The notes beneath the pieces were generated by a model that saw nothing but the letters and a program-made list of their open reading frames with translations, ran no database searches and was not told where the DNA came from. Of a DNA stretch of 15,930 nucleotides, positions 7,261-10,858 are shown piece by piece. The first letter of the stretch is position 1, and each line of letters opens with the position of its first letter. Source of the DNA: an uncultured Collinsella sp. Lineage in GTDB: Bacteria > Actinomycetota > Coriobacteriia > Coriobacteriales > Coriobacteriaceae. Both the position numbers and the translations under genes were made by a program. The stretch is taken from assembly GCA_900551625.1 (NCBI GenBank), contig URWZ01000013.1, positions 1 through 15,930 on the forward strand. The letters run 5' to 3'.

Positions 7261-7297
7261 CCGACGTCCCGAATCTTGGAGGTTCGAGAAACTCCCG

Positions 7298-8671
7298 ATG
7301 GACATAACCATCTCCCTTATCACCACCCTCGTTTTGACCCTCATCAACGGCTACTTCTCTATGTCCGAGATGGCGCTCACCACGGCTAAGCGCGCCGTGC
7401 TGGAGCATGATGCCGAGGAAGGCGATAAGCGCGCCGAGCGCGCCGTCCAACTCGCCGCCGACTCTGATCAGCTGTTGGCCACCATCCAGGTCGCCATCAC
7501 GCTCGTGGGCTTCGCCTCGTCCGCCGTCGCCTCGACGAGTCTGTCCGACCCGCTCGCCACGTGGCTCATGAGCTTTGGCATCGCGCCGCTCTCCGCCATC
7601 GCGCGCGGTCTGGCGCCGGTCATCATCACCGTCGCGGTCGCCTTTGTGTCCATCGTGATCGGCGAGCTTGTGCCCAAGCGCATCGGCCTGGCCAATGCCG
7701 AGGGCGTATCCAAGCAGGTCGTGGGACCGTTGTCGTTTTTCCAAAAGATCGCCCGTCCGCTCGTGTGGCTGACTGGCGCTTGCTCCGATGGCCTGGCCCG
7801 CATCCTGCGCATCAAGAGCGCCGACGACCGCCAAAACGTCTCGGAAGAAGAGATCAAGTACATGGTCTCGGAGCAGGACGACCTGCTCGACGAGGAAAAG
7901 CGTATGATCCACGAGATCTTTGACTTGGGCGATACCGTTGCCCGCGAGGTCATGGTGCCGCGCGTGGACACCACCATGTGCGAGGACGACGAGACGGTCG
8001 CCGACGTGCTGTCCACCATGCGCCAGACCGGCTTTAGCCGCATCCCCGTCTATCACGAGGATCCCGACAACGTCGCCGGCATCGCGCACATCAAGGACCT
8101 GATCCAGCCTTCGCTCGACGGCAAGGGCGACCAGCCCATCGCCGACTTTTTGCGCGACGCCACCTTTGTGCCCGACACCAAGGACATCCTGCCGCTGCTG
8201 TCCGAGATGCAGACCTCGCACGACCAGATCGTAGTGGTCGTGGACGAGTACGGTGGCACGGCCGGCATCATCACCATCGAGGACATCGTCGAGGAGATCG
8301 TGGGTGAGATCGAGGACGAGTTCGACCCCGACAACAAGTACCTCACGCGCCTTTCGCGCCGCGAGTGGCTCGTCGATGGGCGTTTTTCGTGCGATGACGC
8401 GATTGAGCTTGGTTGGCCGCTCGAGGAAAGCGATGATTATGAGACCATCGCCGGCTGGATTTTGGAGCTTTGCGACTCGGTGCCCGACATCGGAGAGGTG
8501 TTTGAGGTCGCGGGGTACAAGTTCAAGGTGCAGTCGATGCGTGGCCAGCGCATCTCGCTCATTCGCGTGATCGCTCCGGCCGAAACCGATAAGAAGGATT
8601 CCGAGCCCTCGACAGACGAGCCGACGGCGTCTGGTGCGGGCTCTGCGGACCCGCACGACGGCGACGAGTAG
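7298..8671 (+). CDS. CNNM/CorC-HlyC family transporter with CBS pair
   Basis: The 457-residue protein has the standard three-part layout. The CNNM (DUF21) membrane domain (about 1-185) shows NGYFSMSEMAL (17-27) and GELVPKRIGL (122-131). The CBS pair (about 215-335) contains EVMVPRVD (217-224) and VDEYGGTAGIITIEDIVEEI (315-334). The CorC_HlyC domain (about 345-427) is followed by a 30-residue acidic disordered tail. Family members are linked to Mg2+ or Co2+ export and Mg homeostasis; many are mis-named haemolysins. ATG 7298 begins exactly at the first membrane helix. The nearest strong Shine-Dalgarno, GGAGG (7278-7282), is 15 bases away and lies in a potential hairpin (GGAG 7278-7281 with CTCC 7292-7295), so initiation may be modulated. 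The next gene starts 24 bases after the stop. Confidence 0.93.
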   Translation: MDITISLITTLVLTLINGYFSMSEMALTTAKRAVLEHDAEEGDKRAERAVQLAADSDQLLATIQVAITLVGFASSAVASTSLSDPLATWLMSFGIAPLSAIARGLAPVIITVAVAFVSIVIGELVPKRIGLANAEGVSKQVVGPLSFFQKIARPLVWLTGACSDGLARILRIKSADDRQNVSEEEIKYMVSEQDDLLDEEKRMIHEIFDLGDTVAREVMVPRVDTTMCEDDETVADVLSTMRQTGFSRIPVYHEDPDNVAGIAHIKDLIQPSLDGKGDQPIADFLRDATFVPDTKDILPLLSEMQTSHDQIVVVVDEYGGTAGIITIEDIVEEIVGEIEDEFDPDNKYLTRLSRREWLVDGRFSCDDAIELGWPLEESDDYETIAGWILELCDSVPDIGEVFEVAGYKFKVQSMRGQRISLIRVIAPAETDKKDSEPSTDEPTASGAGSADPHDGDE

Positions 8672-8695
8672 GGTAAGGAAGAGTAGGGGAGAGTT

Positions 8696-9577
8696 ATGGC
8701 AGGCCTGTTCAACATCCTTAAGGTCACCGTCAGCGAGGACAAGATCTGCGCGCACGTGCTGGTGAACCCCGGCATGCCGCTCATGACCTCGGAGGACATC
8801 GAGGCCACGGCGCGCGTGTATTACCTGGTGCCCGCGATTGCCAAGCACCTGTGCCTGGGCGATTCCGGTCGCGAATTCCAGGACTGCATGGGCCAGACCG
8901 AGCTTTGCCATCTGCTGGAGCACGTGACGGTCGAGCTCATGAACGAGACCGGTCTCGCTGGCAGCATTTCGTGCGGCCGCACTCGCGTGAGTGAGCACGA
9001 TGAGCGTGTCTTTGAGGTCGAGCTTTCGTGTCCCGACGACGCGCTGGCCATCGGCGCGCTGTCTTCGGCGACCTTTATGATGGATTGGGCCTATCTGCAT
9101 GCCGATCAGCCCGCTCCCGACGTGGACGGTACGGTCGCGGGCCTGCGCAACCTGGTACTGGGCATGCGTGCCGAGGCCGAGGGCAAGGACCCGCACGAGG
9201 CCGTCGCCGCCGCGAACGCCGAGGGCGAGGCCGGGGACGCGACCGAGGGCGAGGCGCCTGCCGAGGCTGCCGTCGATCCTGTCGACGATGCCCCTGCCGA
9301 GGCTGCCGTCGATCCTGTCGACGATGCCCCTGCCGAGGAGACCGTCGAGGCCGAGCCCGCGGAGCCCCAGGGCGTCCCGAGCTTTGACGACGAGCCACAG
9401 GAGGTAATCGATACCGAGGGCGCGACCGCCGAAAGCCACGAGGCCCCCGCTGCCGTCTACGGTGGCGCGGCGACGGCTCCGGTCGCCCCCGCGCACGAGG
9501 GAGCGCTGCCGCTCGTTGACGGCGCCGGCGAGGACCCGGGCGCTACAGTGGCCATGCCTGCCATGCCACAGGAGTAG
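8696..9577 (+). CDS. Stand-alone cyanophycin-synthetase N-domain-like protein with acidic repeat tail
   Basis: No standard name applies. Residues 1-160 read like the N-terminal domain of cyanophycin synthetase CphA: a VPAIAKHLC helix (45-53), then TELCHLLEHVTVELMNETGL (68-87), then CGRTR (93-97) with FEVEL (106-110). The spaced pattern L-x-P, H-x-C, H-x-x-E-H-x-x-x-E-L and G-R-T-R matches CphA from memory. The ATP-grasp and Mur-ligase-like parts of CphA (some 700 residues) are absent. Residues 161-293 are Ala/Glu/Pro/Asp-rich and disordered, with two exact copies of PAEAAVDPVDDA. The start is set by GGGGA at 8686-8690, five bases before the ATG. It lies 24 bases after the CNNM stop, probably in the same transcript. 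No membrane segment or signal peptide is seen. It may be a polymer- or peptide-binding protein, but this is inference. Confidence 0.8.
   Translation: MAGLFNILKVTVSEDKICAHVLVNPGMPLMTSEDIEATARVYYLVPAIAKHLCLGDSGREFQDCMGQTELCHLLEHVTVELMNETGLAGSISCGRTRVSEHDERVFEVELSCPDDALAIGALSSATFMMDWAYLHADQPAPDVDGTVAGLRNLVLGMRAEAEGKDPHEAVAAANAEGEAGDATEGEAPAEAAVDPVDDAPAEAAVDPVDDAPAEETVEAEPAEPQGVPSFDDEPQEVIDTEGATAESHEAPAAVYGGAATAPVAPAHEGALPLVDGAGEDPGATVAMPAMPQE
9257..9348 (+). repeat. 36-bp coding tandem repeat (2 exact copies plus a decayed third)
   Basis: The 36-bp unit beginning CCTGCCGAGGCTGCCGTCGA runs at 9257-9292 and again without change at 9293-9328. A third partial copy reaches about 9348 with three mismatches. 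It encodes PAEAAVDPVDDA. The length is a multiple of three, so copy number can change without a frameshift. Confidence 0.9.
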
Positions 9578-9662: not shown

Positions 9663-9713
9663 GGACAGCATTCAAACGGTGGGCGCCGAGGTGCCCGCAG
9701 GAGAGGAATGAAC

Positions 9714-10103
9714 ATGGGTAAGACTTTCAACTTTATCTCGGGTGCGCTCTTCGGTGCTGCCGCCGGCGCCATCATCGGCGTCGCCCTGGCTCCGCGCTCG
9801 GGCGCCGAGACCCGCGCCATGGCTGCCGATATCGCCAACGACGCCTGGGATAACATGCGCGACACCTACGAGCACGGTGCCGAGGAGGCCCGCGCCGCGG
9901 TCAACGATTTTGGCCCGATGGTCGACGCCAAGACCGATGACCTGCGTGCCAAGGTTGACCTTGCCCGCGAGCGCATGGACCAGCTGCGCGAGCAGCTCAA
10001 CGACGCCATCTCGGGCGGCAACGTGACGCCCGCCGCCGATGTCGTGGTCGAGAACGCCGTCGAGGCCGACGCCGAGGCCGCGGAGCCTTCGACCGAGGCA
10101 TAA
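9714..10103 (+). CDS. YtxH domain-containing protein
   Basis: The 129-residue protein begins with a Gly/Ala-rich membrane helix followed by a basic-to-acidic turn, FISGALFGAAAGAIIGVALA then PRSGAETR (7-34), the signature of the YtxH family. The rest (35-100) is an amphipathic helix with coiled-coil character. The tail is Ala/Glu/Val-rich and acidic. Start choice: AGAGG (9702-9706) is seven bases before ATG 9714, while ATG 9708 would be only four bases from AGGAG, so 9714 is preferred. The stop TAA shares its last A with the ATG of the PRC-barrel gene (TAATG at 10101-10105), implying translational coupling and probably a joint role at the membrane. YtxH proteins are stress-associated in Bacillus; the molecular function is unknown. 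Confidence 0.87.
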   Translation: MGKTFNFISGALFGAAAGAIIGVALAPRSGAETRAMAADIANDAWDNMRDTYEHGAEEARAAVNDFGPMVDAKTDDLRAKVDLARERMDQLREQLNDAISGGNVTPAADVVVENAVEADAEAAEPSTEA

Positions 10104-10858
10104 TGCGCGCCGGGGATTTTGTCGGCGCCAAGATCTATCGCAAGCCTACCGAGGATAAGCGCACCAAAAAAGACGGCACGCCGCGCAGTCCTAAAAAGCT
10201 CGGCAAGATTCACTTTCCGGTCTTTACCCCGGGCGGTACGCGCGTGGTGGGCTTTATGGTGCGCCAGTCCGATATCGCGGGCATGATCGAGCGCCCCGAC
10301 CGATTTGTGGCGCTCGATGCCATTGGCGTCTACGAGGGCGCCATCGCGGTTGACGACGTCAAGGGCACCTACGATGCCGCTGCGGCCAAGCGCCTCGACA
10401 TCAACCTGGACGATTGCATTATCTGGGTTGGCATGGACGTGCGCACGGAGTCGGGCGATGTCGTGGGCTATTGCTCGGATGTGGAGTTCAAGCCGCGTTC
10501 GGGCATCGTGCAGACGTTCTACGTGACCGCCGGCACTGCCTCGAGTGTGCTGGTGGGCGACACGCAGATGCCGCCGACGATGCTGCGCGGCTACGAGAAC
10601 GGCGCGATGGTCGTCTCGGACGAGGTCAAGTCGCTCGGGTATTCGGGCGGCGCCGCCGCAAAGGCTGCCGAGGCAAGCGTCGTGGTGGGCGATAAGGTCA
10701 AGAAGGGCGCCAAGGTGCTCGATGACAAGGGTTCGGTCGCCGTGGACAAGGGCAGTCGCGCGCTGGGCAAGCAGCTCGGCAAGACGCGCGGTATGTTCAA
10801 GGCCTTTAAGGACGAATATCAAAAGGCGAGCGGTGGCTCGTCGAAAGCTAGCAAATAG
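10103..10858 (+). CDS. PRC-barrel domain protein, coupled to YtxH
   Basis: The 251-residue soluble protein appears to have two PRC-barrel-like segments. The first covers about 30-85 (KLGKIHFPVF, then TRVVGFMVRQSD). The second covers about 100-152 (DDCIIWVGMDV, then GDVVGYCSDVEF). Both have the beta-turn-beta pattern of a residue pair followed by G-x-V-V-G. The C-terminal 80 residues are Lys/Ala-rich, helical and basic, possibly binding the acidic YtxH tail or the membrane. The ATG at 10103 overlaps the YtxH stop by one base, with GAGG at 10095-10098 four bases upstream. PRC barrels occur in the photosynthetic reaction-centre H subunit, in RimM and in many uncharacterised envelope proteins; they bind protein or RNA partners. 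The specific role here is unknown. Confidence 0.82.
   Translation: MRAGDFVGAKIYRKPTEDKRTKKDGTPRSPKKLGKIHFPVFTPGGTRVVGFMVRQSDIAGMIERPDRFVALDAIGVYEGAIAVDDVKGTYDAAAAKRLDINLDDCIIWVGMDVRTESGDVVGYCSDVEFKPRSGIVQTFYVTAGTASSVLVGDTQMPPTMLRGYENGAMVVSDEVKSLGYSGGAAAKAAEASVVVGDKVKKGAKVLDDKGSVAVDKGSRALGKQLGKTRGMFKAFKDEYQKASGGSSKASK

Follow-up and report, generated by a model that had tools for sequence, protein, structure and literature searches.

This study investigated a 15,930-nucleotide stretch of DNA from an uncultured Collinsella sp. (NCBI GenBank assembly GCA_900551625.1, contig URWZ01000013.1; the whole stretch is hereafter called the window) and a gene at 8696-9577 on its forward strand, the product of which is related to the N-terminal domain of cyanophycin synthetase (CphA). 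The product of this gene is, in our view, probably a free-standing zinc metallohydrolase of the CphA1-N kind, with a peptide substrate that is probably other than cyanophycin. Homology, fold prediction, residue conservation, distribution, and gene neighborhood were analyzed, and from these we infer metal binding, catalysis, the substrate, and the sequence in which features were lost and gained.

The gene and its product

The open reading frame starts with ATG and lies entirely inside the window, with AGGGG at 8685-8689, a short way 5' of the start; a promoter scan revealed no promoter-like site near the gene. A database search (E <= 1e-3) returned 2149 homologues of the protein, and comparison of residues 1-165 with 15 close loci revealed 11-38 synonymous but only 0-3 non-synonymous changes (ratio of non-synonymous to synonymous substitution rates, dN/dS, 0-0.03). 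The frame is therefore a real gene and not a chance one, and its N domain is under very strong selection in the lineage of the window.

PF18921 (Cyanophycin synthase-like N-terminal domain) was the sole Pfam family in the 293-amino-acid protein, covering residues 38-126 (30.5 bits; cut-off 27). A preliminary description, made from the sequence alone, had proposed a CphA N domain standing alone on the basis of the landmark HxxEHxxxEL followed by GRTR; both are present, as HLLEHVTVEL at residues 72-81 and GRTR at residues 94-97. Its statement that the ATP-grasp and Mur-ligase parts are missing was upheld, with neither domain found among Pfam and NCBIfam models. Full-length CphA models covered the N part only and scored far under their cut-offs (TIGR02068, cyanophycin synthetase, 25.9 bits against a cut-off of 850). 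The protein is a member of PF18921 and is not a cyanophycin synthetase. We ruled out a CphA piece truncated by the edge of a contig or assembly, given that the reading frame is complete within the window and the same free gene occurs in most sampled genomes of the class.

Predicted metal site and fold

The N domain of CphA1 has been described as a metallopeptidase-like endo-cyanophycinase that makes primers (PMC9262961). In SuCphA1, the metal is held by C59, H79, and H83; E82 acts as the base, and H83 is supported by H57 and E87. CphA1 carrying E82Q is inactive in primer-free synthesis (PMC9262961). A second paper on CphA1 structure is PMC9427784. These residues were compared across 70 fetched loci, drawn from 69 of the 185 genomes with the domain (L001 and L013 represent a single gene). 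Alignment A1 (43 rows) combines the window protein with 42 of these loci, chosen for diversity. The features of the domain are as follows.

8696..9577, + strand: coding sequence of the 293-amino-acid stand-alone CphA-N-type protein with an acidic tail (open reading frame; PF18921 above cut-off)
8696..9190, + strand: N domain, residues 1-165, predicted metallopeptidase-like fold
8846..8848, + strand: His51, counterpart of SuCphA1 H57 (second shell), 42 of 43 rows, aligned to 7lg5
8852..8854, + strand: Cys53, predicted metal ligand (SuCphA1 C59), 43 of 43 by alignment; CphA1 role from PMC9262961
8909..8911, + strand: His72, predicted metal ligand (SuCphA1 H79), 43 of 43 by alignment
8918..8920, + strand: Glu75, predicted general base (SuCphA1 E82), 43 of 43 by alignment
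8921..8923, + strand: His76, predicted metal ligand (SuCphA1 H83), 43 of 43 by alignment
8933..8935, + strand: Glu80, counterpart of SuCphA1 E87 (second shell), E in 34, D in 7, S in 1, and Q in 1 of 43

The H-x-C at residues 51-53, which lies 5' of HxxEH and had gone unnoticed in the preliminary description, completes the predicted metal site. Six columns of A1 were invariant (P46, C53, T68, H72, E75, and H76), and four of these are the metal or catalytic residues, for which the probability is approximately 5e-7 if columns are exchangeable, a rough yardstick. The near-invariant columns include H51 and D115 (42/43 each). The pattern H-x-C-x18-HxxEH-xxx-E/D was present in all 240 proteins listed from two database searches (the best 120 of 2149 and 120 of 309), the first 120 of which are near-identical in the N domain and weigh little more than one sequence. 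Cx18HxxEH was present in 69 of the 70 fetched loci, L047 carrying an insertion (x24); Q replaces H51 in L036, and the final acidic residue is missing in L063 and L066.

The fold of the predicted domain matched the solved CphA1 N domains over the whole domain, the best seven CphA1 matches in Foldseek having E values of 3e-7 to 3e-5 and template modeling (TM) scores of 0.69-0.77. LuxS came next and was weak, so the structural match that the preliminary description had proposed as a check was found and was better than that to another family. Judging from the alignment, residues 1-165 would bind a metal through C53, H72, and H76; by analogy with CphA1, E75 would serve as the general base, and H51 and E80 would form a second shell. 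The folded domain would cleave an amide bond in a peptide or peptide-like molecule, probably as a cytoplasmic enzyme.

Distribution and evolution

A PF18921-type domain was found in 185 of 197 sampled Coriobacteriia genomes and in 164 of the 170 good ones. Some losses within the class are probably real because 6 of the 12 genomes without the domain are good genomes; 3 of the 12 account for all f7 genomes sampled (family labels f1-f22 were assigned by a program, without names). The survey for cyanophycinase that the preliminary description had suggested returned none above cut-off in the 197 genomes (TIGR02069), with weak partial matches in 69. CphA (TIGR02068) was likewise found above cut-off in none of them. 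Matches to TIGR02068 below the cut-off occurred in all 197 and were, by position, ATP-grasp or Mur-ligase parts. The five strongest partial matches (f2 and f7) were ATP-grasp parts, and the two that were read, both from f7, were GshF; a sixth strong partial match lies in L078 (f18). A split CphA with its remaining parts elsewhere in the genome was rejected, with 0 of the 197 relatives' genomes above cut-off.

The survey was widened with the A1 profile to Actinomycetota (296 genomes) and with PF18921 to Chloroflexota (201), Pseudomonadota (200), Deinococcota (81), and Myxococcota (77). In Actinomycetota, 46 of 296 matched: 26 from Coriobacteriia (frames of 136-350 amino acids) and 20 from elsewhere, comprising 18 long CphA-size frames and 2 Cx19 CphA pieces, one in L094, where the frame is broken, and one in L098, next to a masked run. 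The matches in Pseudomonadota (9/200), Deinococcota (4/81), and Myxococcota (13/77) had CphA-size frames, save two Myxococcota genomes with shorter frames (444 and 260 amino acids) that are cut at the contig start by coordinates. In five Pseudomonadota genomes (G692, G755, G823, G843, and G869), another frame of CphA size, its N domain diverged, lies approximately 2 kb from the first CphA.

Of the 24 Chloroflexota matches, 22 were of CphA size, 1 was a Cx19 CphA piece with a stop near the contig end (L180), and 1 was a free-standing relative (L179:4090-4617, + strand; A1 profile E 1.5e-19). The group of the latter, P0241-P0254, comprises 14 listed proteins including that of L179 (174-255 amino acids), all with Cx18HxxEH. 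A six-frame listing of L179, where no neighbor search was made, revealed no recognized Ddl-like (D-Ala-D-Ala-ligase-like) gene.

In a quick maximum-likelihood tree of 87 domains, all CphA rows fell on one side of a branch with a Shimodaira-Hasegawa-like approximate likelihood ratio test (SH-aLRT) value of 97, and the free forms lay outside. In the same tree, which is unrooted and has long branches, the Coriobacteriia free rows formed one side with an SH-aLRT value of only 56. The separation of CphA from the free forms at the branch with SH-aLRT 97 thus lends no support to the idea that the free domain arose recently from a sampled CphA that shed its ligase parts.

Gene neighborhood and operon partners

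Neighbor counts are lower bounds, as some loci end at contig ends. The genes flanking the window gene are as follows.

7265..8671, + strand: CNNM/CorC-like gene, 24 bases upstream on the same strand (PF01595, CBS, CorC_HlyC)
9708..10103, + strand: YtxH-family gene, downstream (PF12732; same strand in 32 of 39 loci)
10103..10858, + strand: PRC-barrel-like gene, downstream (weak PRC match under cut-off; same strand in 30 of 39 loci)

The 11 loci of f3 resembled the window, with CNNM just upstream in 9 and the YtxH and PRC-like genes downstream in all 11. Among the 28 loci outside f1 and f3, CNNM occurred in one (f6), YtxH in 21, and PRC in 19. The CNNM gene that the preliminary description had highlighted is thus where it was placed, but it is lineage-specific, and CNNM was rejected as a defining context, as was the acidic tail, which among the families measured occurred only in f1 and f3. 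The PRC-like protein at 10103-10858 adjoins the YtxH gene, and both neighbors are kept across much of the class.

The same 28 loci carried an aminotransferase gene downstream on the same strand in 18 and a Ddl-like gene in 18; the linked ATP-grasp genes that the preliminary description had suggested looking for do exist near the free domain. The aminotransferase matched PF00155 in the scanned member, and its nearest NCBIfam models were PdxR/MocR, MppQ, and GntC, all under cut-off. The operonic ligase is a second copy, given that all 9 chosen genomes also hold a better-scoring Ddl elsewhere; in the ligase tree, 17 operonic copies grouped in a distinct clade (SH-aLRT 100) that excluded 7 canonical ones. 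The three f1/f3 genomes examined hold a single Ddl, away from the N-domain gene (on another contig, 96 kb away, and 48 kb away). Loci with the second, divergent copy among the genes after the N-domain gene include L070, L054, L052, L045, and L060; one active-site stretch reads FDFSAMYTPG in L070 and L052, versus YDYESKY in the canonical L181 and L184, and varies in the other rows. Upstream, the 17 loci of f4, f8-f11, and f19 carried UPF0182 (16), holin-like (16), and RlpA-like (14) genes, so that in some families the aminotransferase and Ddl-like operon stands near cell-wall-type genes; in f5, SerS was upstream in 10 of 10 loci. We found no paper on D-Ala-D-Ala ligase and Coriobacteriia in the open-licence literature.

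Because a MocR-type aminotransferase and a second Ddl-like ligase often accompany the domain in deeper lineages, the ancestral substrate would most plausibly have been a short cell-wall-type peptide, perhaps with D-amino acids. The retention of the domain in the lineage of the window without these partners suggests that it has a role of its own there. A bolder and less likely reading is that Coriobacteriia hold an old, unstudied family of Cys-His-His zinc peptidases of minimal size (approximately 155 residues), which would be related to the primer-making domain of CphA as a sister family and would not descend from it. Joined to this reading, and as speculative, is a split ligase-plus-peptidase pair in which a dedicated second Ddl-like ligase and the MocR-type aminotransferase might make, and the domain trim, an undescribed peptide, now or at the origin of the family; if so, the origin of the third module of CphA would be revealed.

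Substrate and alternative functions

The window protein resembles the CphA1 N domain (PF18921; SuCphA1, TeCphA1) in sequence family and predicted fold and shares its C, H, E, and H metal-site residues and second-shell H and E. The CphA1 N domain is fused to ligase parts, whereas the window protein is free-standing with a lineage-specific acidic tail. The polymer-contact residue R70 of SuCphA1 was R in 36 of 37 CphA loci examined (chosen for diversity from 100 fetched) but not in the window protein; the two candidate columns in A1 contain chiefly D, A, E, V, or C, and R appears in 2/43 at one and 0/43 at the other. E90, another polymer contact of SuCphA1, varies in CphA too and is uninformative. 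The substrate is probably not cyanophycin because no cyanophycin enzyme was found above cut-off in the sampled class and this arginine is absent. The reading of the preliminary description was supported in part: it stood in homology and fold, and its landmark proved to be the predicted active site.

Several observations weigh against a metallohydrolase. The predicted model contains no metal, and the site was placed by alignment and not by coordinates. H51 is Q in 1/43 and E80 is S or Q in 2/43 of A1, and R stands at the H51 position in 14/14 of the Chloroflexota stand-alone group. The spacing is Cx18HxxEH, whereas that of CphA1 is Cx19HxxEH (the same 36 of the 37 CphA loci; L178 has x21). From the window sequence alone, the CphA link is thin: a single-sequence PDB search ranked CphA (E 0.61) after rubrerythrin matches to the tail (E 0.2-0.3). 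Selection was less extreme in comparisons with 5 loci at greater distance (dN/dS 0.18-0.32; synonymous changes were close to saturation). The aminotransferase and Ddl-like partners are absent beside the window gene and were not found in 10 of the 28 loci outside f1 and f3, and the cell-wall link is contextual, drawn from neighboring genes. Finally, the N domain of CphA1 cleaves slowly and binds polymer as well (PMC9262961), leaving room for a pure binding role.

Such a role, in which a metal-stabilized, non-catalytic module would hold a peptide or partner protein and the Cys/His/Glu cluster would be structural, is unlikely but is the alternative that survives best. The CphA1 N domain also anchors the nascent polymer (PMC9262961), and the tail could serve as an interaction segment. 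Nevertheless, Glu75, which corresponds to the general base and a non-ligand in CphA1, was invariant in 43/43, and a structural site has no need of a base. A true endo-cyanophycinase that cuts cyanophycin from the environment or diet would agree with the activity of the closest characterized relative (PMC9262961). This is very improbable, however, in view of the lack of cyanophycinase and CphA above cut-off in 197 genomes, the R70 counterpart that is not kept, and the presence of the gene in 185/197 genomes where a patchy spread would be expected.

LuxS has HxxEH and a Cys ligand, and LuxS chains were the first non-CphA matches in Foldseek. A LuxS-like or other non-peptidase hydrolase with such a site is nonetheless hardly credible, since these matches were weak (E from 0.07, probability 0.15-0.30, TM 0.24-0.27) relative to those of CphA1 and no LuxS appeared among profile matches at E <= 10. 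M16 inverzincin peptidases also have HxxEH (PMC9262961), the only part of their site evident here; their third ligand is a downstream acidic residue or His, whereas that predicted in the window protein is an upstream Cys, and no M16 peptidase was among the 50 structure matches listed. A functionless relic of CphA minus its ligase parts, which the homology and the lack of CphA above cut-off in the class sample might suggest, can be dismissed given the dN/dS of close loci, near-universal retention, and the separation of CphA from the stand-alone rows in the tree.

The zinc metallohydrolase reading also bears on annotation. Some records already carry the name "cyanophycin synthetase family protein" (Collinsella aerofaciens P0023, with an N domain identical to that of the window protein, and Chloroflexota P0243 and P0250); these are the same or homologous stand-alone proteins, and the name implies synthesis although they have no ligase domain. 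In genomes of this class, the label is no sign that cyanophycin is made. We found no paper on the free form in the open-licence literature on PF18921, endo-cyanophycinase, the CphA N domain, or cyanophycin in relation to Coriobacteriia, Collinsella, and Eggerthella. If the reading is true, a misleadingly named gene widely kept in gut bacteria (Collinsella and its class) becomes a testable enzyme, free-standing relatives are gained for the third active site of CphA, which was recognized only recently, and the operon hints at substrates.

The acidic tail

The two features of the tail are as follows.

9191..9574, + strand: acidic low-complexity tail of variable length, only in f1 and f3 among families measured; a variable part, then a largely conserved end
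9250..9338, + strand: 36-bp tandem repeat, 2.5 copies, within the tail (repeat detection)

The tail starts at approximately residue 166. Its middle varies by insertion within the species group and its end stays similar, the last approximately 70 residues (223-293) being largely conserved in 18 distinct close sequences aligned. The low-complexity acidic tail of the preliminary description is thus present, but with a largely conserved end and in f1 and f3 only. All 26 f1/f3 loci measured had net-acidic tails (40-379 amino acids), whereas in other families the frame ended 0-5 amino acids past the domain stretch in 27 of 27 loci. Tail and operon partners were mutually exclusive among the sampled loci, an exclusion that may reflect one event on the tree. 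A full-length model built from near-identical rows had a predicted local distance difference test (pLDDT) score of 41.5 and was uninformative on the tail.

At the start of the window, translation of bases 1-60 gives peptides including MCIRDR and SYTHLRA, of a kind that points to adapter or contig-end artefacts in assembled metagenomes.
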